Positions 3,047 to 25,309 of a stretch of 25,471 nt of DNA are shown piece by piece. The position numbers and the translations under genes were made by a program. Under the pieces are notes generated by a model. It was not told the origin of the DNA, did not search any database, and was given only the letters and a program-made list of their open reading frames with translations. Each line of letters starts with the position of its first letter. The first letter of the stretch is position 1. Source of the DNA: a virus; IMG/VR virus record IMGVR_UViG_3300035704_000390, positions 1-25,471 of that record. One strand, 5' to 3'.

Positions 3047-3877
3047 ATGGGGCTCAGTCCAGGTTGGCTGGATTTATTTTGCGATCTCGTGCGCGCGGGG
3101 GAACTGAAGCCCGGCGATGCGATTCTGGATTTTGGCGCGTCCGAACTGTTCTGTTCCGACGATCCGCAAAGTCTCAATCGCGTTCTCTCCGCCTGCGGAG
3201 CGCCGCTCTATTCCGATGACGAGTTGGAACGGCTCGCTCAGCGCGCCTATGCGCGCATCCTATTCGAGCGTGCTGGATTTCGTTACGAGGCAATCGATTA
3301 CGCTGCTTATCCTGGCGTGATTCGGCTCGATCTCAATACCGCGTCGCTCCCCTCGGAACATCACGGAAAATATCGGCTCGTCAGTAACTCCGGCACCAGC
3401 GAGCACATCCTCAATCAATGGAACGTGTTCCAAGCGATACACGAGGCTGCGGCACCTGGCGCGCTGATGTACCACAGCGTGCCCGGCTGGGGCCATTTCG
3501 AGCATGGAATCATCGAGTACTCTCCGAAATTCTTCCGGGCGCTCGCGGACGCAAACGGTTATGAGATCGAGCGATTTTCGGCGTGGTCGGATGGGACTTC
3601 GGAAGTGCTCGACGTCCGCCGATTGCCCTGGGTGAAATTCTCGACGTCGCCAATAGTGGAAAAGGTTTGGCTTCACATCCTATTGCGGAAGTCCTCGGAT
3701 CGCCCATTCGCCGGACTCAATGATCCCGCGCACAATCGCGAATGGCGCATCCCGCAAAGCCGCCTGCGTTTTGAGGCGAGATCACCCGCGACCCGTATCG
3801 TCCGCCGACTTTTACTCAATTCTCTTCTTGCAGTTAGACGATTTGGCGAACGTGTGCAGGCTTTGACACATCGCTAG
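3047..3877 (+). CDS. probable class I SAM-dependent methyltransferase
   Basis: The 276-residue protein looks like a Rossmann-fold methyltransferase. Residues 25-33 (AILDFGASE) resemble motif I of the SAM site, Asp95 lies in a second-strand-like segment, and 109-120 (YRLVSNSGTSEH) resemble the post-II/IV region. A stretch like LYHSVP follows near 152. The C-terminal 60 residues are basic and hydrophobic. Codon use is clearly more AT-rich than in the phage genes, suggesting separate acquisition. It follows the acyltransferase by 68 bases and may share its transcript, perhaps methylating a glycan or a small molecule. Its TAG stop overlaps the stop of the convergent tail-collar gene on a single CTAG. 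No strong ribosome binding site is seen. Confidence 0.68.
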   Translation: MGLSPGWLDLFCDLVRAGELKPGDAILDFGASELFCSDDPQSLNRVLSACGAPLYSDDELERLAQRAYARILFERAGFRYEAIDYAAYPGVIRLDLNTASLPSEHHGKYRLVSNSGTSEHILNQWNVFQAIHEAAAPGALMYHSVPGWGHFEHGIIEYSPKFFRALADANGYEIERFSAWSDGTSEVLDVRRLPWVKFSTSPIVEKVWLHILLRKSSDRPFAGLNDPAHNREWRIPQSRLRFEARSPATRIVRRLLLNSLLAVRRFGERVQALTHR

Positions 3878-9557: not shown

Positions 9558-10523
9558 ATGCCGAAAACCGCACCGTTCATGATGATCGCGACCTGGCGCA
9601 ACTTCATTGTTCCGCTGGCAGCCGCCGTTTTCACCGTCGTTGCGGCGCCCGCGCATGCGCAGACGCGCGTCTTCGTCGGCGCGCTGGGAGCCGACAGCAA
9701 CAGTTGCAGCTTCGCGGCGCCCTGCCGGACCTTCCAGCACGCGCATGATGTCCTTCCGGCAGGCGGGGGCGTCATCGACGTACTCGACCCCAGCCGTTAC
9801 GGCTCGATCACGATCACCAAGCCGATCGATATCCAGGGGCATGGGATTGCCGAGATATCCCCGGGTAGCGGTCATGACGGCATCACCATCAATGCCGGCG
9901 CAAACGACGCCATTCTCCTGACCGGCGTGCTCGTCAACGGGGCGGCGGTCGGCGGCTCCGGCATCGTGTTCAACACAGGCAAGAGCTTGAGCGTCGAGAA
10001 TTGCATCGTCCGCAATTTCACGAGCGCCGGCCTGCGTGCGGTCGCGGGCGTTTTTACGATATCCAACTCGTCCTTTGCCGATAACACCTTCAACGGGATC
10101 CTCCTGCAGGCCACCGGCGGGACGATCACGGCCGCCATCGATCGGACCGTGATGTCCGGCAACGGCTTCACCGGCCTCAACCTGATCGGGCAAGGCGCCG
10201 CGGCGAAAGCCACGGTGACGGACAGCATCGCGGCCAACAACCTCGGCAGTCCGCCCAACGGCAGCGTCGGCTTTTTCGTGCAGGCGGCCGGTGCCAAGAC
10301 GACCCTGGTGCTGACGCGCTCCACCGCCATGGGCAATGAGGTCGGAATTCAAGCGAGCGGCACGAACGGGGCCATACGGATCGGCGGATCGGTCGTGACG
10401 GAGAACACGACGGGCTTCACCGTGTCCTCGCCCGCACAAATCTTCACCTATCAGGACAACATTTTTGACGACAACGGCACCCCCAGCGGCGGCGGGACCT
10501 TGACGCTCGCCAATCCGCAATAG
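9558..10523 (+). CDS. secreted right-handed beta-helix protein, paralogue 1
   Basis: The 321-residue protein has an N-terminal signal peptide ending near residue 35 (AAPAHAQ). TRVFVGALGADSNSCSF...CRTFQ follows, with two Cys that probably form a disulphide. The rest is a run of short beta-strand turns (GITINAGA, GIVFNTGKSLSVENCIV, GVFTISNSSFADN) typical of a parallel beta-helix. Such exported proteins often bind or cut polysaccharides, but no catalytic residues can be assigned. GAGGAG lies about 10 bases before the start; an ATG 7 codons in is also possible. It is the first gene of a plus-strand cassette with an AraC regulator and a paralogue. Confidence 0.85.
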   Translation: MPKTAPFMMIATWRNFIVPLAAAVFTVVAAPAHAQTRVFVGALGADSNSCSFAAPCRTFQHAHDVLPAGGGVIDVLDPSRYGSITITKPIDIQGHGIAEISPGSGHDGITINAGANDAILLTGVLVNGAAVGGSGIVFNTGKSLSVENCIVRNFTSAGLRAVAGVFTISNSSFADNTFNGILLQATGGTITAAIDRTVMSGNGFTGLNLIGQGAAAKATVTDSIAANNLGSPPNGSVGFFVQAAGAKTTLVLTRSTAMGNEVGIQASGTNGAIRIGGSVVTENTTGFTVSSPAQIFTYQDNIFDDNGTPSGGGTLTLANPQ

Positions 10524-10659
10524 GTCGCGACGCGAGAAGGTCAGCGCCGTCGACGATACCTTACCGGGGTGCCGGAACGGGCCGGCGAGATTTTCCTCGC
10601 AGCCCGACCGGCGCTTCGATGCTATGCTGCCGACGACGCAGTATTGCAGGTCGAACGAG

Positions 10660-11637
10660 ATGTCAGTCTCCCCGTCGGACGCGGCGACGATCCAATTTTC
10701 CACCGATGCGTTTTCCGCACGCGAGCGCCTGACCGCCTGGCGCGACACATTCGGCAGCCAGATCGCCAAGCTCGACATCGCGCCTTTGCGCGAAATTCCG
10801 TTCTACGCTCACATGAACATGCGGCTGATGCCGGGGCTCGTCATCGCGTCCGGGTCCGGCGCCGTCAAGGACGTCGGTCGCACCCGGGCGCTGGTTGCCG
10901 ACGGCAATGAGAGCCTGGTCCTGCATATTGCGTCCTGCGCGGGCCGGGCAACGCAGTTCGGCCAGGACATCCCGGTCGCGGCCGGGGACGCGATCCTGCT
11001 GTCGAATTCCCACATCGGCACATTCACGTTCGAACGCGAGCAGTCGGTTCTCGCGATCGGATTGCCGCGCGCGACGCTCGCACCCTCTCTTCAAGATCCG
11101 GACGCCGCTTTTACCCTCACCGTCTCCAGGGACAACGAGGCGCTGCGGCTGCTAAAGGCCTATGCGGGGACGCTCGAGCGAGGGCCTCCGGTCAGCGAGG
11201 AATTGCAGGCGCTCGCGGCGGCTCATGTCAACGATCTCGTCGCGTTGGCGCTCGGCGCGACGCGCGACGCAACCGAGATTGCGCGGACACGCGGCATACG
11301 CGCCGCCCGACTGCACCTGGCCAAAGCCCACGTGACACGGCACCTCGGGTGGGCGGGCCTTTCGCCCGGCAGCGTGGCGGCGCATCTCGGCATCACGCCG
11401 CGCTACGTCCACATCCTGTTCGAGACCTCCGGCATGTCGTTCTCCGAGTTCGTGCTTGCCCGGCGGCTCGCGCACGCACACCGGATGCTGACCTCCCCGC
11501 TTCACGCTGGCCAGACCATTAGCGCGATCGCCTTTGCGGCCGGCTTCGCCGATCTATCGCACTTCAACCGAAGCTTCCGCCGCCGCTATGGCTGCACACC
11601 GTCCGACGTGCGCATCGCCAGGCGCCGCGAGCGGTGA
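10660..11637 (+). CDS. AraC-family transcriptional regulator
   Basis: The 325-residue cytoplasmic regulator has an N-terminal AraC-binding-like cupin domain (about residues 15-170). The C-terminal part (about 225-320) is an AraC/XylS DNA-binding domain with two helix-turn-helix motifs: GSVAAHLGITPRYVHILFE, and ISAIAFAAGFADLSHFNRSF followed by the signature RRRYGCTPSDVR. The start at 10660 is chosen for the downstream sequence MSVSPSDAAT; the frame also has an ATG at 10624. Both have weak ribosome binding sites. It lies between the two secreted beta-helix genes on the same strand, with gaps of 136 and 143 bases, and probably controls one or both. Confidence 0.92.
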   Translation: MSVSPSDAATIQFSTDAFSARERLTAWRDTFGSQIAKLDIAPLREIPFYAHMNMRLMPGLVIASGSGAVKDVGRTRALVADGNESLVLHIASCAGRATQFGQDIPVAAGDAILLSNSHIGTFTFEREQSVLAIGLPRATLAPSLQDPDAAFTLTVSRDNEALRLLKAYAGTLERGPPVSEELQALAAAHVNDLVALALGATRDATEIARTRGIRAARLHLAKAHVTRHLGWAGLSPGSVAAHLGITPRYVHILFETSGMSFSEFVLARRLAHAHRMLTSPLHAGQTISAIAFAAGFADLSHFNRSFRRRYGCTPSDVRIARRRER

Positions 11638-11780
11638 CGACAGGCCGCCGCACCAAACACGATCGCGACCTTCGTCACGATTTTTCCAATGGACTTCCAG
11701 AGCGGCACCAGATCAGCGATGACACGCAAAGCGCATATATGGCATCCTGGCCGCCACGTTACGCCCCGGGGGGATCCGCC

Positions 11781-12542
11781 ATGAAACACGCATCCATTTT
11801 CACCACCGCCATCGCGTTGCTCGCACTCGCGGCCCTTCACGCCACGCCGGCCCAGGCACAAGCGGCACGCGTGTTCGTCAGCGGCGCGGGCAACGACAAC
11901 AACAATTGCAGCATCACGCTGCCCTGCCACTCCTTCCAGAAGGCCCACGACAGCGTGGCGGCGAACGGCGTGATCAACGTGCTCGATCCGGGCAACTATG
12001 GTCCGGTGACCATCACGAAGTCGATCAGCATCGACGGCCACGGGTGGGCGGGCGTGACGTCCGCGGGCAGCGGCAACGGGATCACGATCAATGCCGGCGC
12101 CACTGACAACATCAATTTGAGCGGCATCGTGATCGACGGCCTCAACGCCGGCGCCAACGGGATTGCGTTCAACAGCGGCGGATATCTGCAGATCGCCGAC
12201 TGCACGATCCGACATTTTGTGACCAACGGAGTCTTGCTTCAGTCAAACAGCGTGACGGGCGGGACCCCGACCATGATCCTGAACAGCGTCATCACGCAGA
12301 ACAATGCCGGAATCAATGTGATCCATAGTATTCTGTCGGTCGACAGATCGACCTTGGCCAAGAACGGCACCGCATTCGTCATAAACGACGGCGAGCTCCA
12401 ACTTGGTCGCTCGAGCGTCTTTGCCAACACCGCAGTGGCGCCCACTGATTTTACGGGCGCCTCGTTCGTAAGCTTCGGCGACAACCACTTCTTCAGCAAC
12501 GGCGGCACCGTCCCGATTTTCTTTAAGCCCCCGCTAGAATAG
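11781..12542 (+). CDS. secreted right-handed beta-helix protein, paralogue 2
   Basis: The 253-residue protein has a signal peptide to about residue 28 (HATPAQAQA). RVFVSGAGNDNNNCSI...CHSFQKAHD follows, closely matching the start of paralogue 1, including the Cys pair. It continues with GNGITINAGATDNINLSGIV and further beta-helix turns. It is about 70 residues shorter than paralogue 1. GGGGGGA precedes the ATG at 11781, which is chosen over longer upstream readings that lack a signal peptide. It is the third gene of the cassette, 143 bases after the AraC regulator. Substrate or partner is unknown. Confidence 0.85.
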   Translation: MKHASIFTTAIALLALAALHATPAQAQAARVFVSGAGNDNNNCSITLPCHSFQKAHDSVAANGVINVLDPGNYGPVTITKSISIDGHGWAGVTSAGSGNGITINAGATDNINLSGIVIDGLNAGANGIAFNSGGYLQIADCTIRHFVTNGVLLQSNSVTGGTPTMILNSVITQNNAGINVIHSILSVDRSTLAKNGTAFVINDGELQLGRSSVFANTAVAPTDFTGASFVSFGDNHFFSNGGTVPIFFKPPLE

Positions 12543-12634: not shown

Positions 12635-13258
12635 TCACGGCGTCGCGCCCATCACGCGCACCGCCGAGGGCGCGCGCGTCCTGGCGTCGAGCCGGTCGAT
12701 CTCGTCAAAGATCGCGTCGCGCCGTCCGGCCCACAGCGCCAGGCTGTCGGGATCCTTGACGAAGCCGTGCGCCTCGGCGAGCGCGCCGAAGAGATAGAGG
12801 TCGGGCCAGGTGGCGAAGAGCCAGTTGGTCGCGACCGGCGGCGTCTGCGCGGCGAGCGCCGCGAGATTTGGGACCTTCTGGAAATAGTCGAACGTCAGGC
12901 CGGTGTTGTCGGATGGCCCGAGCGTGAGGTTCGGCCCCTCGATGGTGAAGTAGCGCGGGTTGCCCTGCGGCAGCGTCGGAAACAGCGCATGCAGGTAGGA
13001 CGGATGCACGTATTCGAGCTCGCGCGGCGCGCTGCCGGTCCAGGTGACGCGCCGCCAGGTGAGATAATCCGCCGGCAGCGTCGCGACGCCGTTCGCGGGG
13101 GTTAGCGTGACGGTCGCCTCCTGCTGGCGCACGCGCAGGCGGCGGTTCGCCACGGTCTCGAACAGTGCGATGAAGTCGGGGATGTTCGCGGCGAGATCGG
13201 CGCGGGCGAGCCAGCTCGCGACCGCGGTCTGCAGGTCGGTGTAGGTTTGCAGGGGCAT
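12635..13258 (-). CDS. phage adaptor/head-tail connector protein, SU10 adaptor-like
   Basis: The 207-residue protein looks like the SU10-type adaptor that docks under the portal. It starts MPLQTYTDLQTAVASWLARADL and continues with FIALFETVANRRLRVR near residue 30 and a run of beta strands in the middle (TLPADYLTWRRVTWTG, LTLGPSDNTGLTFDYFQKVP). It ends with a helical section from about 140 that includes WPDLYLFGALAEAHGFVKD. The family links portal to tail. It lies 198 bases downstream of the small conserved gene at 13457-13744 and before the beta-helix cassette. No clear ribosome binding site is seen before the ATG. Confidence 0.85.
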   Translation of the reverse strand: MPLQTYTDLQTAVASWLARADLAANIPDFIALFETVANRRLRVRQQEATVTLTPANGVATLPADYLTWRRVTWTGSAPRELEYVHPSYLHALFPTLPQGNPRYFTIEGPNLTLGPSDNTGLTFDYFQKVPNLAALAAQTPPVATNWLFATWPDLYLFGALAEAHGFVKDPDSLALWAGRRDAIFDEIDRLDARTRAPSAVRVMGATP

Positions 13259-14778: not shown

Positions 14779-15735
14779 TTACGACGTCGTGTTGTCGAAC
14801 ACGCCGCCCGAGGACTTCTCGTTGCGCGCTTCGAGCGTGTACTCGGAGAGCACCTCTTTGCGCTCCGAGTCGCCGGTCTTGGCGAGCGGGATCGACACCA
14901 TCTTGCGGCCGTTGAGATAGGCGACGGCCCACATGTCCATCTGCAGCACCAGCACGTCGCGCGGCCGCGTGAAGCGGTTGGCGACGACCTTGAGGTAGCC
15001 GAAGTCCGAGTCGTAGGCGTCGACCGCCGCGATGATCTTCTTGCCCTTGGTCTCCTCGATCGGCGTCGCGCGGCCCGTGAAGGTCGAGAACGTCTGCTTG
15101 TTGAAGCCGCCCGTCATGATGGTGTCGGGCTTGCCGCCGTTGTTCCAGATCGCCTGCAGCACCGTCTTGAGGCTCGCCTCCGTGAAGGCGCGCTGGGTGC
15201 CGTCGGTGCGCGTGCCGGTGCCGTCGGCGGCCGCCGGGTCGTTGCCGCCGGCGCCCTTGCTGGTGTTCGACTTGAGCCACGACAGCGTCGAGGCGAGCGT
15301 GCGCGCGGTCGCGGCGTTGCCGGCGTTCTTCGCCTGGTTGGTGCCGACCAGGATGCCCTCCATGTCGCGCTTGAGCTCGAGGCCCTTGAGCATCTCCTGA
15401 TAGGCCATCTCGTTGTCGCGGCCGGCGTGCTCGACCGCCTGCTGGGTGCCGGAAACCTGCGGCACTTTGCGGCTGATCTGCGCGACATTGCCGAGCCGCA
15501 CCGTCGGCGTGGTCGCGTCGGCGCTCGCGTCGTCGCCTTCGAGCTGGGCATTGGCGGTGTTGACCGCGGCGAGCGCCTGCGTCTGCCACTCGTGCAGCAC
15601 GGCGGTCGCCTTGGTCTTCTCGACGCCGGTCATGAACGGCGTGTCGGTCGGGTCGATGCGATGGATCACGTCGCTGAGATCCTCGCGATTGCCGGCGGCC
15701 GAATAGGTCGTGAACGTGTTGGCCGGAAGAGACAT
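14779..15735 (-). CDS. major capsid protein, SU10 type (DUF5309-like)
   Basis: The 318-residue protein forms the icosahedral shell. The N-terminus MSLPANTFTTYSAAGNREDL with DVIHRIDPTDTPFMTGVEK nearby matches the start of SU10-type capsid proteins (DUF5309). HEWQTQALAAV, an acidic loop, and VPQVSGTQQAVEHAGR follow. The middle has helical ELKRDMEGILVGTNQAKNAG, and the end carries YDSDFGYLKVVANRF and DMWAVAYLNGRKM. It has an HK97-like fold by family knowledge. AAGGAGA lies directly upstream and suits high expression. It follows the scaffold gene by 22 bases. Confidence 0.92.
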   Translation of the reverse strand: MSLPANTFTTYSAAGNREDLSDVIHRIDPTDTPFMTGVEKTKATAVLHEWQTQALAAVNTANAQLEGDDASADATTPTVRLGNVAQISRKVPQVSGTQQAVEHAGRDNEMAYQEMLKGLELKRDMEGILVGTNQAKNAGNAATARTLASTLSWLKSNTSKGAGGNDPAAADGTGTRTDGTQRAFTEASLKTVLQAIWNNGGKPDTIMTGGFNKQTFSTFTGRATPIEETKGKKIIAAVDAYDSDFGYLKVVANRFTRPRDVLVLQMDMWAVAYLNGRKMVSIPLAKTGDSERKEVLSEYTLEARNEKSSGGVFDNTTS

Positions 15736-15757: not shown

Positions 15758-16903
15758 TTAGCGGCGCTGCGCGGTGCGGCGGGCGACCAGAAGCGCCGCC
15801 GCGTCGCGCAGGTTGCCGGATGCGTTGAGACGTTCGGTGAGGTCCTTGACCCGGCCTTCCGTGTCCGCGTTGCGCGCGGGCGCGGGGCCGGGACGCTGCA
15901 CGTCGGGCACGGGGCGCGGCAGCGGCTTCTTCGCCGCCGCCTGCGCGTCGCGAAAACGCACGCCGTCGCGGATGAGGAGCTGAAGGCGGTGATCGCGCAA
16001 CGAGACGCCGCGCCCGCCGTTCCACATCTCGCCGAGCTCGGCTTGCGAAAAGCCGAGATCCTGGAGCATGTCGGTGGCCGTGCGTGCGGCTTTGGCCAGT
16101 GCCTCGCGGTCGGCGAGCTCGGGCGCCCGCTCGCGAAAGCGGGCGTCCTCGTCGGCCACGAAGGTGTGCCATTGCTGCGCCGCCTCGTGCGACTGGCGCG
16201 CCTGCGCGACCTGGAAGTGCTGCGTGACGGCCGCGATCTTCTTCTGCTGCGCGTCCCACTGCACGTATCGCGGCCAGTCCTCGCGCGCCATCTTCTCGAG
16301 GTCGGCGACCGACTGGATGTCCGCGAACGCGCCCGCCTGCTGCTCCTGCAAGGTCTGCAGCAGCATCGGCAGGGCGCCCTCGTATTGCGCCCGCGCGTGC
16401 TCGGCGGCCTGCTGCTGGGCGCTCAGGCCCTTGAGCTTCTCGGCCGCCTCGTTCTGACGGCGGAGGAAATCGCCCTCGCGTGACCGCTCGCGCTCCGCCA
16501 GCCGCTGCTGGGTGTCGCGAGGGAGACCGCGGAAGAGGTCTTTGTCCTCTTTCGTCCATGACCTCGGCGGCTCGATGGAGGGAAGCGCAGCTTCCCGATC
16601 GTCCGCCTGCGTCTCACCGGGACCAGCGCGCTCGGCGGTCTGCTCGATCGCCTGCTGGGCGGTGCCGGCTTCTTGCGAAGCCAATTCTTCGGCGGCGGGG
16701 GCGCCATCGCGCGCCGCATCCGCCGGTTGGTCGTCGTCGTCGCGCCGCCGCGCGCCGGCACGCTCTTTGGCGCGCGTGTCGACCAGCGAGCGCGCCGCCT
16801 CGCGCGGCGTCAGCGGCCCCTCGCCGCCCGCCGTGCGCTCGACAATATCGCTCGCGACCGGCGCCTCGCCGGCGCCGGCTACATTATTATTCTCGTCCAT
16901 CAA
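15758..16903 (-). CDS. scaffolding-like protein
   Basis: The 381-residue protein is highly charged and helical, as capsid scaffolds are. The N-terminal 115 residues are acidic and probably disordered, with EAGTAQQAIEQTAERAGPGE. A motif SIEPPRSWTKEDKDLFRGLP follows near 110-130, a common opening of scaffold cores in short-tailed phages. Then come Gln/Ala/Glu-rich helices (RDTQQRLAERERSREGDFLR, QFQVAQ-type repeats). The C-terminus is basic (ARRTAQRR), which suits docking on the capsid lattice. It directly precedes the capsid gene. AGAGG precedes the start. Confidence 0.85.
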   Translation of the reverse strand: MMDENNNVAGAGEAPVASDIVERTAGGEGPLTPREAARSLVDTRAKERAGARRRDDDDQPADAARDGAPAAEELASQEAGTAQQAIEQTAERAGPGETQADDREAALPSIEPPRSWTKEDKDLFRGLPRDTQQRLAERERSREGDFLRRQNEAAEKLKGLSAQQQAAEHARAQYEGALPMLLQTLQEQQAGAFADIQSVADLEKMAREDWPRYVQWDAQQKKIAAVTQHFQVAQARQSHEAAQQWHTFVADEDARFRERAPELADREALAKAARTATDMLQDLGFSQAELGEMWNGGRGVSLRDHRLQLLIRDGVRFRDAQAAAKKPLPRPVPDVQRPGPAPARNADTEGRVKDLTERLNASGNLRDAAALLVARRTAQRR

Positions 16904-16925
16904 AAACCTCTTGGTTTGTCGCCGT

Positions 16926-17216
16926 TCACACGATGCCGAAGCGGTGGCGCCGCTCGGCGAGATCGTCGAGCTCGCGCTTCGCGAGCTTGCCGTTGGTGAG
17001 CACGTGGCCGAGATGGTCGCGCACTTTCGCGACCACCTGCACGGCCTGCCACAGCCGCTCGCGCGCGTCGGTGTCGCGCGCGGCCGTCTCGCGCCACGCC
17101 TTGGTGTAATCGCGGTCGAGCGCCACGAAGGCTTCGATCAGAAATTCGTCGCGCAGCAGCGCGTCGGCACGCGCCGCCCGTTCGCTCGCGCGCGCGAGCG
17201 CGATCTCGTCGGCCAT
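16926..17216 (-). CDS. small conserved phage protein, unknown function
   Basis: The 96-residue protein is helical and charged, starting MADEIALARASERAARADAL. It includes LLRDEFLIEAFVALDRDYTK, then DTDARERLWQAVQVVAKVRD, and ends with LAKRELDDLAERRHRFGIV. It has no Cys or membrane segment. It is 22 bases before the scaffold gene with AAGGG upstream. The helical pattern could serve as a head-assembly accessory or small DNA-binding protein, but I cannot assign a family. Confidence 0.75.
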   Translation of the reverse strand: MADEIALARASERAARADALLRDEFLIEAFVALDRDYTKAWRETAARDTDARERLWQAVQVVAKVRDHLGHVLTNGKLAKRELDDLAERRHRFGIV

Positions 17217-17246: not shown

Positions 17247-17879
17247 TCACGCCCCGCGCCGCACGAGCAGCAGCAGCGCAATCGCCTCGTCGTCGTCGCG
17301 CTCGTGCGCGGCCGCGTGCGCCGCAAGCGTCGCCTGCGCGCTCGCGCGCGCCGCGATCTCGCGCAACTGCGCGACGCCGCGTGCGGCCGCGGCGGCATGG
17401 ACCTGAGCGAGCGCGGCCGCCGCCGCATCGCCACGGGCCTTCGCCTCGGTCCGCGCGCGCTCGCGGGCGGCTGCGAAAGCCGCTTCGCGGCGCCGGCGCT
17501 GCGCGGCGCGGCGCAGCCGCGCGTCGCGCGCGCGCCGTTCCCGCACGGCCTGCTCGGCGGCCCGCGCCGCCAGCATGTCGTGCCAGCGCTTGCGCGAGAA
17601 GGTGCCGCCGCTGATCGACGAACCGCCGCCGAGCAGGTCGTAGCTCAAGAACGCCGGCTCCGCCGTGCAGACGATGTGCCCTGTCTGCGCCGGCTCGACC
17701 GGATCAAAGACGACCGCGCGTCCGGTGAGCGCGTAATGGCCGAAAGTTGCGGTCAGCGTCGGCGTGAGATTTCCCGCCGCACCGGCAAGCGCGAATGAGC
17801 CCGCGCTGACCGATAGAACCGATATCGTGTTGGGAAGCTGCCCCAACGCGAACGACCCGAGCGGCCAAAATCCAAACAT
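17247..17879 (-). CDS. phage protein with hydrophobic N-terminal repeats and Ala/Arg coiled-coil tail
   Basis: The 210-residue protein has two unlike halves. Residues 1-80 contain short beta repeats (GSFALGQL, GSFALAGAA, GHYALTGRA), a pattern seen in phage structural proteins. From about 105 to 205 the sequence is almost all Ala, Arg and Glu, with a long coiled-coil look. The start at 17879 is chosen because its ATG overlaps the preceding TGA as TGATG, which couples it to the esterase gene. The extreme Ala/Arg tail is not a frame error, as no competing frame gives sense. Function unknown. Confidence 0.68.
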   Translation of the reverse strand: MFGFWPLGSFALGQLPNTISVLSVSAGSFALAGAAGNLTPTLTATFGHYALTGRAVVFDPVEPAQTGHIVCTAEPAFLSYDLLGGGSSISGGTFSRKRWHDMLAARAAEQAVRERRARDARLRRAAQRRRREAAFAAARERARTEAKARGDAAAAALAQVHAAAAARGVAQLREIAARASAQATLAAHAAAHERDDDEAIALLLLVRRGA

Positions 17880-20739: not shown

Positions 20740-21573
20740 ATGAAATCTGGAATTGCGTTGAAATCTGCGCTGGCCTTATCTGCCTCGGCTCTTGCACTCA
20801 CGTGGGCCGCGAGTCCGGCGGCCGCCGACTCGCAGAATATCAAAGGCTCCTACTTCTTCACGGGCTCGGCCTCGTGTCTCGTCTCGCCGGGTCATTTCGA
20901 TGCCCCGAATCCTCTTCCGGGCAACCCGCAGCCCGGCGTGCTCGCGCCCGGCTCCGGCTTCAACATCCGGCTGCAGCCGAACGACATCACGCTCCCCAAC
21001 CTGCCGAATGGAACTAACGACCAGCAGTCGTTCACCCGTTCGTTCTCGGTCACGGGCATTCGCACCTTCGACGGCAATGGCCATGGCACCGTCAACGGCA
21101 GCGCCGTCGGCCACGACGGCCGCCCGACGCCGGGGCCGACCGGCTGGCCGCACTTCCCGCCGTCGGCGGGCTCGTCCACCTTCAGCTACACGTTCACCTA
21201 TACGGTCGACGGCAACGGCGGCTGGAGCGCCACCATGGACCGGGGCAGCTTCAAGGAGACCTCCACCAGCGGCTCGCGCGCCATCGGACCGAACGGGGTC
21301 GACGCCAACGGGCAGCCGGTCGACGCGGGCTTCCCGCAGACCGCCACCATGTCCGACCCGAGCGGGCAAGGGTTCGACGTGATCCCGCCGATCGTCGGGT
21401 CGATCACCAACGACGGCAAGGTGCTGACCGCCTCGCATCCCGCGACCGTGGTGGAGACGCGCCTGTTCTCCAACGGCGACGTGTGGCCGGAGATCTGCGC
21501 GCGCTCGCGCGTGTTCACCCTGTTGCCGAACAACAACGGCAACGGCAACGGCAATAACGGCAACGGCAAGTAA
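20740..21573 (+). CDS. exported protein of unknown function with Asn/Gly tail
   Basis: The 277-residue protein has a signal peptide of about 29 residues (ALTWAASPAAADS). The mature part is beta-rich with Gly, Thr and Asn, including NIKGSYFFTGSASC and FNIRLQPNDITLPNLPNG. It has two Cys, one near the mature start (SASCLV) and one near the end (PEICAR), which may pair. It ends in a low-complexity tail (LLPNNNGNGNGNNGNGK). GGGGGG precedes the ATG. It is on the opposite strand to the phage genes, and the STN-like gene follows. No family is recognised. It could be a periplasmic or surface protein. Confidence 0.78.
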   Translation: MKSGIALKSALALSASALALTWAASPAAADSQNIKGSYFFTGSASCLVSPGHFDAPNPLPGNPQPGVLAPGSGFNIRLQPNDITLPNLPNGTNDQQSFTRSFSVTGIRTFDGNGHGTVNGSAVGHDGRPTPGPTGWPHFPPSAGSSTFSYTFTYTVDGNGGWSATMDRGSFKETSTSGSRAIGPNGVDANGQPVDAGFPQTATMSDPSGQGFDVIPPIVGSITNDGKVLTASHPATVVETRLFSNGDVWPEICARSRVFTLLPNNNGNGNGNNGNGK

Positions 21574-21586
21574 CCTGAACCGTTGC

Positions 21587-21618
21587 GGGCCGGTCCGACC
21601 TCGCGGACGGACCGGCCC
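21587..21618 (+). terminator. hairpin after the exported-protein gene
   Basis: Arms gggccggtccg (21587-21597) and cggaccggccc (21608-21618) are perfect 11-base complements with a 10-base loop. It lies 14 bases after the stop at 21573. Only a short, weak T-rich stretch (gtgactctta) follows, so termination strength is uncertain. Confidence 0.5.
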
Positions 21619-21657
21619 GTGACTCTTAACTCGCCGACGGCAAGCCGAGCCCGCCTC

Positions 21658-22059
21658 ATGCGCCGAAGCCGGACGTCACCGCGCCTGTCTGGTGTTCGCG
21701 CATGCGCGATCGCGATCGCGCTTTGCCTCGTGCCGCTAGCGGCGCAGGGCGAAGTCCGCGTCGACGGCAATCCGGCCGCCATCCGCATCACCACCCATCA
21801 TGATTCGATCAACAACGTGCTGGCCGCGCTGCGCACGAGCTTCCACGTGCAGCACCGGAGCGCGATCGCGCTCGATATGCCGGCCAACCCAACCTATGCG
21901 GGTCCGCTCGACCGCGTGATCGCCAACCTGCTCGACGACTTCAACTACATCGTCAAGAAGAGCCCGGCCGAGACCGAGATCATCATTCTCGGCCACCACG
22001 GCGAGGCCGCGATGCCGCCGCAGAAGCCCAGGCTCGACATCCTGTCGCGCTGGCGCTGA
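21658..22059 (+). CDS. small exported protein with STN-like fold
   Basis: The 133-residue protein has a basic N-terminus and a hydrophobic signal sequence (ACAIAIALCLVPLAAQG) ending near residue 31. The mature part, with RITTHHDSINNVLAALRTSF, HVQHRSAIALDMPANPTYAG and VIANLLDDFNYIVKKSPAET, resembles the secretin/TonB short N-terminal (STN) domain, which usually lies at the start of secretins and TonB receptors. Here it stands alone with a Pro-rich tail (MPPQKPRLDILSRW). The ATG at 21658 has no strong ribosome binding site; the same frame is open from 21583. It follows a hairpin after the exported-protein gene. Function unknown. Confidence 0.72.
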   Translation: MRRSRTSPRLSGVRACAIAIALCLVPLAAQGEVRVDGNPAAIRITTHHDSINNVLAALRTSFHVQHRSAIALDMPANPTYAGPLDRVIANLLDDFNYIVKKSPAETEIIILGHHGEAAMPPQKPRLDILSRWR

Positions 22060-22087
22060 CAGTTCTCTTTATTTCATGCTCTTGCGA

Positions 22088-22172
22088 CGTCATTGCCCGC
22101 GAAAGCGGGCAATCCAGTATCCACGAGAGTCAGTGAGTACCGGATCGCCCGCTTTCGCGGGCGATGACGGCG
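22088..22172. repeat. REP-like palindromic repeat, copy 2
   Basis: It opens with cgtcattgcccgcgaaagcg and closes with gctttcgcgggcgatgacgg, so its ends are inverted and can fold. It matches the ends of the repeat at 606-746, with a shorter centre. It lies between the STN-like gene and the end of the portal gene, close to the convergent stops of both. Confidence 0.75.
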
Positions 22173-22211: not shown

Positions 22212-22245
22212 ACTCAAATCGGCTCCAAACTTAAATCGGCTCCAA
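22212..22245. repeat. 17-bp tandem duplication at the portal stop
   Basis: Copies 22212-22228 and 22229-22245 (aaatcggctccaa core) differ at one base. On the minus strand they contain the last codons of the portal gene (Leu-Glu-Pro-Ile, TAA) and then a second near-copy. It lies 40 bases from the REP-like repeat and may be a replication slip. Confidence 0.8.
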
Positions 22246-24582
22246 ATGACTCACCCGCCCTGCCGCGTCGCGCACGACGCGCATGGGGCGCGGCGGGGCG
22301 GCAGCTTGTGCCGGCGGATGGATGATCGGCGCGAGCCGCGCGATCAGGGCGTCGAGGTCGAGCGGCAACGACGACGGCGGCGCCGGCAGCGGCTGACCGT
22401 CCGGCCCGATGGCGCCACTGCCCGCATCGCCCATCGTGGCGCCGGCCGCATCGCTCATTCTGCCGCCCATCGCGGCCAGGCTCTTGATCAGATCGAGATG
22501 CCCGCGCTGCATCTCCATGGCGTGCAGCGCCGATTTGCGCACATCCTCGCGCTCGGCCAGCGCCTTCTCGTGCTCGAACTTGAGCGTCGCGACCGCCATG
22601 TCGGCCCGCGCCTGGGCGGCGACGTATTGCTGATCGGCCTGCGCCTTCGCGGCCGTGAGCGCGATGTGCTGCTGACCTTGCGCCTGGTCGCCTTGCGCCT
22701 TGAGCATGTCGGGATTGGGCGGCGGCGCGATCGGCGCGCTTGCGGGATCGAGCGGATTCGGCGGCGCCGCCGGATCGAGGAAATACTCGGAGGGAAACTG
22801 CAGCCCCGCGAGCTTGACGAACTCGCGCGCCGAATTGTGCAGGTTGCGCTTCGACACCATGCCCAACTGGATCGCCTTCTCCTGCAGGCCCATCACCTGG
22901 CCGAGCGCCGCGAGCTGCGCCTGCCGGGTGCCGGAGCCGAGCCCCACATGCACGGTGAGATGATCGCGCTTCTTCCACTCACGCGGATCGATCGTGACCC
23001 ACTGGTTGCGCAGCTGCACGGTCGCCTGCGCCTGGCCGTGCTTGCGGATGATCTCGTGCAGCAGCCAGAACAGATCCTTGATGCCGGTTTCGGCGAAGAT
23101 GCGCGCGATCAGCTTGATCTTGGCCTGCGCGGCCGTGAACACCTGGTTGACCGCAGTGGCGGTCTGGTTCGCCAGCGCGTCGGCGTCGATCCCCTGCCCC
23201 TGGCGCGTGACGCCGGTGCGCCACTCGCGCATCGCGTCCATGTATTCCATCACCGGGAACGCCTGCGCGGCGATCGACGGCACCACCTGCCAGTTGAGCC
23301 CGCCCGGCTGCTTCGTACGCACGATGCCGCCGGGCCGCGAGACGAGAAGATCGTCGAGCGTCTCCGGTCCGGCGAACTGCTCGGCGACCTCGACGCGCGG
23401 ATTGTTGGCGAGATAGACGTTGTCGAGCACGCCGCGCAGGATCGCGGTCTTGATGCGCTGGATGTCCATCACGAGATCGGCGAGCGAGCGGCCGAAGAAG
23501 CGATGCGTCTGGATCACGGGCGTCATCGCGGCAAACGGGATGTCGTCGAACTCGACGATGTCCGGCTTGCCGTCCTTGATCAGGATATCGCCCTGCTGGC
23601 CGCCGGTGCGCACCTTGTAGAGGCACGCCTTGCCGTCGCCTTTGTAGTCCATGCGGATGTAGTGCTCGGTCGTCTCGATGCGGCGCGCCGCCTGGTTGTT
23701 CTCGTCGCCCGTGTATTGGTACTCGTCGACGGTGTCGCGCCGCACTTCTTCGACATTGGTGATCGCCGTATAGGTCGGCAGCGTCTTCACTTGCTCCGGG
23801 TCGTATCCCTCGGCGATGAGTTTGGCCTGCTGGATGAGAATCTTGTGGAAGCAGTAGTCGCAGTCGCGCAAGCTGCGCGCATTACGGCTGATGCCGAATT
23901 CTTCCGGCGGCACGGCCTCGACGCGCGCCTCCGCGGCCTCTTTCGCGCGCACGCATTCGACGTCATGCAGCAGCGGACCGCCCGCGGGGAACGCCTCTCC
24001 GGCCGTCGCCGGCGCGATGGTGGGATCACTCCCCTGTCCGCCGGGCGGCGGCGACAGCGCCGGCCGCGCCGTATGCGCCGCGATCTCGATATCGGGATCG
24101 GCGGCAAGGATCGCGAACGCGTCGTCGGTCAGGTCGTAATAAGTCTCGCGCTCCTCAAGCGTCCGCGTCTCCCACCACACTTTGACGATGCCGGTCTTCG
24201 ACAGCAGCGCGTCCTTGATGAACGTGTAGAGGATCAGAAAGCCCGGGTTGCGCTGGAGGAAGACATGATTGACGTAGTCGGTCTCCTGCTCGGCCGCCGC
24301 GGTATCGTTCGGGCCGACCGGCGCGAACTTCACGATCTCGTCGCCCGAGCAAAAAATCTCCATCAGCGACGGCATGATGCCTTCGACCGTGTCGGCGACG
24401 TCGGTCGAGACCGCGCGCGAACGCCCCTCCGGCGCCGGCATGTCCTTCGCCATGTCGCCGAGGTAATAATCCATCGCGTCGGAGCGCTCGGCCGAAAGCT
24501 TTGAGGCCGCAATGGCAGCGAGCGCGTCGTTGCGCTCGGCCTCGAGCAGCGCCTTGACCTCGGTAAGCGACATTTTTGCCAT
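22231..24582 (-). CDS. phage portal protein
   Basis: The 783-residue protein forms the DNA portal at the capsid vertex. Family marks are the N-terminal DAMDYYLGDM and STDVADTVEGIMPSLMEIF, DYVNHVFLQRNPGF near 105, VPPEEFGISRNARSLRDCDY in the mid region, and VRTKQPGGLNWQVVPSI with FPVMEYMDAMREWRTGVTRQ later. These are typical of long portals of short-tailed phages. Residues about 630-720 form Gln/Ala/Glu-rich coiled coil (EHEKALAEREDVRKSALHAM), the expected barrel or crown. It starts MAKMSLTEV with no clear ribosome binding site. A terminator-like hairpin ends about 20 bases before it. No terminase is seen upstream. Confidence 0.92.
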   Translation of the reverse strand: MAKMSLTEVKALLEAERNDALAAIAASKLSAERSDAMDYYLGDMAKDMPAPEGRSRAVSTDVADTVEGIMPSLMEIFCSGDEIVKFAPVGPNDTAAAEQETDYVNHVFLQRNPGFLILYTFIKDALLSKTGIVKVWWETRTLEERETYYDLTDDAFAILAADPDIEIAAHTARPALSPPPGGQGSDPTIAPATAGEAFPAGGPLLHDVECVRAKEAAEARVEAVPPEEFGISRNARSLRDCDYCFHKILIQQAKLIAEGYDPEQVKTLPTYTAITNVEEVRRDTVDEYQYTGDENNQAARRIETTEHYIRMDYKGDGKACLYKVRTGGQQGDILIKDGKPDIVEFDDIPFAAMTPVIQTHRFFGRSLADLVMDIQRIKTAILRGVLDNVYLANNPRVEVAEQFAGPETLDDLLVSRPGGIVRTKQPGGLNWQVVPSIAAQAFPVMEYMDAMREWRTGVTRQGQGIDADALANQTATAVNQVFTAAQAKIKLIARIFAETGIKDLFWLLHEIIRKHGQAQATVQLRNQWVTIDPREWKKRDHLTVHVGLGSGTRQAQLAALGQVMGLQEKAIQLGMVSKRNLHNSAREFVKLAGLQFPSEYFLDPAAPPNPLDPASAPIAPPPNPDMLKAQGDQAQGQQHIALTAAKAQADQQYVAAQARADMAVATLKFEHEKALAEREDVRKSALHAMEMQRGHLDLIKSLAAMGGRMSDAAGATMGDAGSGAIGPDGQPLPAPPSSLPLDLDALIARLAPIIHPPAQAAAPPRPMRVVRDAAGRVSHLEPI

Positions 24583-24600
24583 GGGCGGATCGGCTCGCTT

Positions 24601-24641
24601 GAAAAAGCAAAGCGCCCGGCAGCACGAAGCTCCGGGCGCGA
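24601..24641 (-). terminator. terminator-like hairpin just before the portal gene
   Basis: On the minus strand the stem gcgcccgg...ccgggcgc (24632-24639 paired with 24612-24619) is followed by TTTGCTTTTTC. That is a stem-loop and T-run of the Rho-independent kind. It ends about 20 bases before the portal ATG. A second copy lies 172 bases upstream within the tandem repeat. Either it ends transcription from the right or the phage reads through it. Confidence 0.6.
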
Positions 24642-24891
24642 GATCAGCAGACTAGGATTTATGCCTTCGCCGAATTGCCGGAAAAGCGCAAGCGCGAATT
24701 GATTTATCCTCACCTATTCGCGAGGAGCCGCCGGTCGGCGGCGGCAAATAAGTTCACGAGGTTTTTTTCGCCCGAAAAGCAAAGCGCCCGGCGGCGCGAG
24801 GCTCCGGGCGCGAGATCAGCAGACTAGGATTTATGCCTTCGCCGAATTGCCGGGAAAGCGCAAGCGCGAACGGCGTTATCCCCGCCCATTC
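24603..24891. repeat. 172-bp tandem duplication upstream of the portal gene
   Basis: Two copies of about 117 bases (24603-24719 and 24775-24891) lie 172 bases apart. They share gcaaagcgcccggc, then ctccgggcgcgagatcagca, gactaggatttatgccttcg and ccgaattgccgg, with a few differences that include changes on both sides of the hairpin loop. Each copy holds a stem-loop. Between them lie gtttttttcgcccgaaaa and another small palindrome. No gene is supported in 24583-25037, which also holds a hairpin-rich end near 24900-24965. Confidence 0.85.
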
Positions 24892-25037
24892 TCGGGCGCG
24901 TCGATTGCGGCGCTACCCGCAACGCAACGCGCGCCCGAAGCAATGAGCCTCGGACGCGCGCTTGTTACTCCTGTCGTTCCCGGCATGCACCGATCGCGTC
25001 AAGAACGCGAGCGGCGCCGGCCGAGTACTGCCTACGG

Positions 25038-25217
25038 CTACAGACGCCGGCCGAAGCCGCCGCGGAAGCCGCCGAAGATCAGCGACAGCAAAAACAGAAC
25101 GATGAAGACGAAGAATACGATCTTTGCGATTCCGGCTGCCGCCCCGGCGATTCCGCCAAAGCCGAGAGCTGCCGCGATAAGCGCAATGATCAGCAGTGAT
25201 ATGACCGCGCCGAGCAT
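25038..25217 (-). CDS. DUF1328 family small membrane protein
   Basis: The 59-residue protein starts [19 protein letters not shown] and has two membrane segments (about 4-22 and 29-50, [16 protein letters not shown]) with [14 protein letters not shown] between. This is the DUF1328/YtjA family pattern, which occurs widely in bacterial chromosomes; the role is unknown. The start at 25217 follows GAGGA and is preferred to a frame extending 19 residues further. It ends with [11 protein letters not shown]. It probably belongs to the host and would mark the end of the prophage, though that is inference. Confidence 0.87.
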
Positions 25218-25309
25218 GGGGGCGTTCCTCCGTTGTGTCCCAAGTTCAACGCTCGGAGGATGCGCGAGTTCCATCCGGCCGCTGCGCGCGCGGCCGCCGA
25301 ATCAGGCGT

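Follow-up and report, generated by a model that had tools for sequence, protein, structure and literature searches.

Late control in lambdoid phages (Q and pR'-tR', as in lambda and phage 21) uses a regulator gene, a promoter, a nearby intrinsic terminator and, behind these, the late genes. The locus described here resembles this arrangement in that its relatives show a promoter closely followed by an intrinsic terminator ahead of late genes, and in that the first structural match of the predicted models of phage DUF6456-type proteins is Q21. In the window, i.e., the whole stretch of DNA that was analysed, a complete IMG/VR record of 25471 bases, the hairpins are clear and the promoter is putative. 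Unlike the lambdoid case, the present units are repeated, either in tandem arrays of up to six or at dispersed sites, and the phages are alphaproteobacterial, with no sequence similarity shown. Antitermination reportedly also links phage-derived loci in the Bartonella GTA (BaGTA), a likeness drawn from the title alone of a 2025 report by Korotaev et al.

The Caulobacter crescentus gene transfer agent (GTA) offers a second comparison: GafZ is described as an antiterminator that lets transcription pass terGTA, which consists of three 150-bp direct repeats bearing inverted repeats (PMC11150451). As far as the parts of that report used here go, the system (PgtaT, terGTA, GafZ) is like ours in concerning an alphaproteobacterial capsid gene cluster, in having repeats of roughly 150 bp that stand in tandem, contain inverted repeats and act there as a terminator, and in its DUF6456/GafA-family regulator, of a kind found in the window's relatives (PMC11150451). 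GafA homologues are described as carrying the DUF6456 annotation (PMC9638019, PMC9765227), and GafZ as resembling the C-terminal part of GafA (PMC11150451). Judged by their letters, the arrays of the window and of the related locus L005 have the terGTA type of feature, tandem direct repeats carrying inverted repeats. The two systems differ in that terGTA lies after the first gene of its cluster whereas the window units stand directly before the portal gene, as seen within the record's 25471 nt; in that the same parts of the report mention no promoter within the repeats, whereas each present unit has a promoter-like part; and in that the window record contains no GafZ homologue. At the targets of Pseudomonas AlpA, according to the portions of the paper used here, the terminator begins 54 nt (alpB) or 26 bp (PA0807) past the start or promoter and is overcome by an antiterminator that loads at the promoter; these targets differ from ours in having one promoter each, in not being phage late genes and in depending on another protein family (PMC7969949). 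What separates the present units from the known promoter-terminator-antiterminator systems is multiplication of the whole unit, and in the open-access literature we recognised no description of such units.

Hairpin units ahead of the portal gene

The minus strand of the window carries an SU10-type late module, recognised by Pfam and phrog matches: the portal gene (22231-24582, with its ATG at 24582; Pfam SU10_portal E 1.7e-193; phrog_1216), a scaffold-like gene (15758-16903), the major capsid gene (14779-15735), an adaptor gene (12635-13258), and tail and lysis genes. No terminase gene is seen in the 25471 bases, and the record stops 889 nt upstream of the portal gene, which is the first gene downstream of the array of hairpin units.

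Host-like or accessory genes lie within or beside this operon, mostly on the opposite strand (plus strand: 1923-2978, 3047-3877, 9558-10523, 10624-11637, 11634-12542, 20740-21573 and 21583-22059; minus strand: 25038-25274). Their kinds include acyltransferase, methyltransferase-like, beta-helix, AraC-type regulator and DUF1328, among others, and the record has the look of a prophage that is rich in morons or partly domesticated. A separate repeat family is represented by a 40-nt inverted repeat (85%) at 22085-22172, part of which recurs 21 kb away at 606-642 as an 86% direct repeat.

The array itself consists of two 120-nt tandem units on the minus strand, identical at 108 of 120 positions (90%) and spaced 172 nt from start to start. 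The portal-proximal copy, W1 (24603-24722), comprises an upstream block, a promoter-like part, a leader and a hairpin terminator, and W2 (24775-24894) is its portal-distal repeat. The tandem hairpin units reported by the first-pass annotation are thus real; its figure of 172 bp holds for the spacing, whereas the repeated part is 120 nt and the remaining 52 nt are not repeated. A divergent third unit, W0, at about 24910-25008 on the same strand, resembles the class found at the related loci L005 and L006: its local alignments with three such units score 71-80, against a shuffled maximum of 34.

On the minus strand both W1 and W2 read GCGCCCGG..CCGGGCGC, then TTTGCTTTT. The W1 hairpin occupies 24612-24639 with its T-tract at 24611-24602 (fold -23.4 kcal/mol, z -2.7), and the W2 hairpin 24784-24811 with its T-tract at 24783-24775 (-19.4 kcal/mol, z -0.6). 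The stem letters are the same in both, as the annotation had said; the variation that it saw around the loop amounts to three T/C substitutions, located in the loop or its inner surroundings, and these are therefore not compensatory. The other nine differences fall within the first 41 nt, and the intervening 53 nt contain none. A terminator pattern scan of the window is weak by itself (3 found versus 1.9 expected), so that the significance of the hairpins comes from their conservation. The last T, at 24602, lies 19 nt before the portal ATG, in agreement with the earlier estimate of about 20 bases, and a promoter would indeed not fit between the nearest hairpin and the start codon.

A scan of the window for consensus sigma70 promoters found no site. 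Relatives with clear promoters nevertheless set the position of a putative core promoter, TTTCCG-N17-TAAATC, at 24656-24684 in W1, with the same promoter at 24828-24856 in W2, both on the minus strand. Of its two boxes, the -10 (CATAAATC) is fair and the -35 is poor. Upstream of this promoter, at 24686-24720 in W1 (minus strand), alignment places an upstream block, GAATAGGTGAGGATAAA..CGCTTGCGC. This block is conserved in the window class as GGGGATAAC..CTTGCGC, is common to the units of L005, L006 and L008, and may be an activator site. The promoter spacer of the window shows no significant palindrome (p 0.49).

Units in relatives and in host genomes

Loci related through the portal gene were collected from viral contigs (80 kept of 163 confirmed) and from genomes (25, mostly Bradyrhizobium). 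Homologues of W1 are present at L004, L007, L085, L008 and L083. In L004 there are six tandem copies, spaced by 130-135 nt, and the array ends just before the portal gene; it takes up the space that separates the portal from a probable divergent ORF, and this placement suggests the array as the place where transcription of the portal begins. L008 has two units 204 nt apart, ahead of an operon that, by eye, reaches the portal via a terminase-like ORF, and L007 has at least one; L083 and L085 are further loci from a pattern scan of viral contigs in which five stretches matched. The three units of L005 belong to a second sequence class, spaced by 275-276 nt, and include recent duplicates (97% over 276 nt). 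L006 has two units, far apart, and G010 five that are dispersed.

Two covariance models extend the picture. The first, R1, was built from 11 units, W1 and W2 among them, which score 128.8 and 129.5 bits respectively. It found additional, weaker units, and 44 of its 45 rows lie on the portal strand, as do all 25 rows of the second model, R2, over 96 loci; both counts include training members, which match by construction, and repeated contigs. A generic scan for a promoter followed by a hairpin in 108 portal-oriented loci gave 29 distinct matches on the late strand versus 3 on the other, identical segments being counted once and all three opposite-strand rows kept. Without deduplication the same scan gave 41 versus 4, and six Markov-1 shuffles gave 0-2.

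A sigma70-type promoter is present in many of the divergent units. In the commonest class, class 2, it reads TTGACG-N17-TAGGAG and is followed by a 19-nt leader, a hairpin (GCGCCCGCC..GGGCGC) and a T-tract. Across 14 distinct class-2 units the identity is 0.97 in the leader, 0.49 in the spacer, whose length is constant at 17, and 0.26 downstream; the search pattern had fixed the -35, the -10, the two lengths and the start of the hairpin, and neither the spacer nor the leader letters. This pattern of conservation argues that the unit is a promoter, a short leader and a terminator, giving an RNA of about 50 nt. Between phage lineages the leader sequence differs while the architecture of the unit stays constant.

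A palindromic element for binding an antiterminator was considered as a general feature of the unit and was not upheld. Among 12 lineages whose spacers were examined for palindromes, L060 alone stood out (p 0.001), and the 12 pooled gave p 0.011.

Some class-2 units (L118 2262-2540; L112 9218-9290) are followed by a second long stem, TTTCAGCCGAC..GTCGGCTGAAA, whose 5' arm overlaps the T-tract. Accessory genes, encoding a methyltransferase and Imm11-family immunity proteins, lie between or beside units at L112 8315-9046, L170 1002-1637 and L172 3232-3921, as if the units marked accessory-gene boundaries there.

The first-pass annotation had allowed that the repeat might be a widespread dispersed element. 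For the window class this was checked in 397 genomes of the host order, a set defined at the level of the order, and the window-class core occurred in none; neither did the class-2 core. An exact search of viral contigs with the window's own 22-mer also returned no match, since the end of the leader varies. R1 matched none of the 20 sources of the Bradyrhizobium loci, 19 genomes and one phage record, in a search run without a positive control. The Bradyrhizobium class behaves differently in one respect: its promoter-like repeat, TTGACACGTCGGGCAAANCA, is dispersed in 57 of 60 Bradyrhizobium genomes with up to 41 copies each (example loci L149-L168; the reversed-pattern control gave 0). Most of the chromosomal copies inspected lack a hairpin, and those with one are mostly clustered, with a solitary case at L153. 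Both annotated clusters, G032 and G437, lie at phage packaging genes. In G032 the units flank a small gene that weakly matches the small terminase, and the large terminase comes next; the order in G437 is the same, and its large-terminase-like ORF seems to be truncated. Rfam gave no match at the gathering score (best E 2.4 at a low threshold), and a tRNA scan was empty.

A DUF6456/phrog_21451 gene beside the unit

In five relatives (L060, L061, L033, L059 and ppBeUSDA76-2) a gene matching DUF6456 and/or phrog_21451 stands directly before the unit, and in four of these (L060, L059, L033 and ppBeUSDA76-2) terminase genes follow it; in L061 a terminase was not identified. Specifically, ppBeUSDA76-2, which derives from Bradyrhizobium elkanii USDA 76, has an ORF at 16651-17184, a hairpin at 17199 and the terminase at 17739. 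The ORF matches phrog_21451 as well as DUF6456 (E 1.1e-5, 25.9 bits; 26.5 in the genome search, with a cut-off of 26.3). In L033, L059 and ppBeUSDA76-2 the unit or hairpin came to light first and the gene afterwards; L060 and L061 were looked at on account of the gene, already known there. The five cases come from 26 loci with an inspected upstream gene, and 20 of the 26, many of them on short contigs, have no such gene beside the unit. The DUF6456 Pfam scores straddle the cut-off (22.9-26.5 versus 26.3), with no Pfam match in L033. DUF6456 is present in other relatives, and in none of the nine records made up of the window and eight near relatives, which may be fragments. G496 gives a weak DUF6456 match.

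In a Bradyrhizobium yuanmingense prophage (L099) a unit lies 14 nt past the end of a DUF6362 gene (3147-3554). The gene weakly matches sigma region 4 and is possibly a regulator of a second type acting on these units.

The L060 and L033 proteins were modelled with AlphaFold at mean pLDDT values of 65.8 and 67.7, with higher values in the helical C-terminal parts. For both, the first VIA-align row is the phage 21 antiterminator Q21 (6p18_Q), at Z 8.7 over 108 aligned residues (rmsd 5.4) for L060 and Z 8.0 over 102 residues (rmsd 4.5) for L033; the two models are not fully independent, since they share alignment rows. Q21 entries make up five of the top nine rows for L060 and four for L033, and the remainder are sigma-factor structures. 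Both Q21 scores are weak. Rows for sigma region 4 reach 7-8, the tool carries a warning on helical folds, and a Z near 8 may reflect a shared helical or sigma-4 arrangement. Foldseek alone gave no significant match for a DUF6456-type model (E about 2), and a PDB sequence search with the DUF6456 alignment gave ribosomal and other unrelated matches only. The predicted structure of GafZ is described, in the parts of that report used here, as having no similarity to known antiterminators (PMC11150451), and for this reason the Q21 match is a lead only. The DUF6456 kind of candidate antiterminator may be Q21-like in fold.

A proposed late switch and its alternatives

The sequences show a promoter-hairpin architecture conserved in relatives, the strand and position of the units, their multiplication in tandem, and the DUF6456/phrog_21451 gene directly before the unit in five relatives. 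We consider it somewhat probable that the units are multiplied late promoter-terminator units of the pR'-tR' kind under antitermination of the GafZ/Q21 type. RNA polymerase would start within a unit, make an RNA of about 50 nt and halt at the unit's own hairpin. A GafZ/DUF6456-kind antiterminator, from phage or host, would join the polymerase near the promoter, and the modified polymerase would pass the hairpin or hairpins into the portal gene and the remaining late operon. The array would then be an on/off switch for virus particle production, with three such units in tandem in the window and up to six in relatives.

The annotation had proposed that the portal transcript must either read through both hairpins, by antitermination or attenuation, or be silent. 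Antitermination is the best-supported reading, since in relatives the unit sits behind a GafZ-family gene and ahead of packaging genes. One part of that proposal is not supported, namely that the hairpins merely obstruct a transcript arriving from upstream. In relatives a promoter sits within each unit, upstream of its own hairpin, so that portal transcription may start in the array and have one hairpin to pass instead of both. For the window we infer that the poor promoters are active, perhaps helped by an activator bound to the upstream block, and that the hairpins terminate in vivo. The DUF6456 protein would be the antiterminator for these units, and the window would be served by one encoded elsewhere; with DUF6456 in none of the nine records, it would have to come from outside the record. 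The Caulobacter gafYZ genes need not lie in the GTA cluster either. Several observations count against antitermination: this lack of DUF6456 in the near records, the lack of a consensus -35 and of a significant palindrome in the window, the small share of loci with the DUF6456/phrog_21451 gene (five of 26, two of them chosen for it), the Pfam scores on either side of the cut-off, the ambiguity of a Z near 8, the conserved leader, which also fits a small RNA, and the orientation of two units of G013. These two point toward the 3' end of an ORF on the other strand; read-through would thus be antisense at first, which counts against a pure leader role.

The same G013 units, lying beside opposite-strand ORFs, would suit a family of small RNAs, in which the unit is a 50-nt RNA gene with a conserved trans-acting 5' leader, the tandem copies set the dose, and the portal gene is transcribed from elsewhere. 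The leader is also kept (0.97) while the promoter spacer drifts (0.49), and the units are multiplied in tandem. However, there is no Rfam family, the leader letters change between lineages while the architecture stays, antisense matches of the leader to the phage's own strand are not above chance (0 of 6 contigs), and the place behind a DUF6456 gene is left unexplained. We regard this alternative as unlikely, although conservation of the leader fits both it and antitermination.

Less probable again are plain terminators that insulate the late operon, or relics in a decaying prophage, which recombination would have multiplied and which would have no regulation of their own. The degenerate window promoter, the host-like genes inserted among the window's late genes and the recent L005 duplicates (97% over 276 nt) speak for this reading, but promoter and leader are conserved in relatives with clear -35 and -10 boxes, and the units are biased to one strand. 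That the units are a dispersed host repeat lying near phage genes by chance is very improbable: dispersed copies of the Bradyrhizobium-class promoter part do occur in 57 of 60 genomes, but most of the chromosomal copies inspected are without a hairpin, and the window-class and class-2 cores each occur in 0 of 397 genomes of the order.

Starting from the antitermination reading, we put forward, as a tentative extension, a late switch of multiplied self-terminating promoters in SU10-like alphaproteobacterial phages. It would be read by a DUF6456 antiterminator with a Q21-like fold, ancestral to GafZ/GafA; the copy number of the unit would be a tuning device, and the Caulobacter terGTA repeats a domesticated form. 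If this is true, the regulation of gene transfer agents would be linked to phage late control, phages would have the order GafZ-family gene, promoter-terminator unit, packaging genes, and terminators of the repeat type would have phage counterparts. The unit would also be a small module of promoter, leader and hairpin, of which natural variants with one to six copies exist, and a candidate function would be available for phrog_21451, a phage family without annotation.
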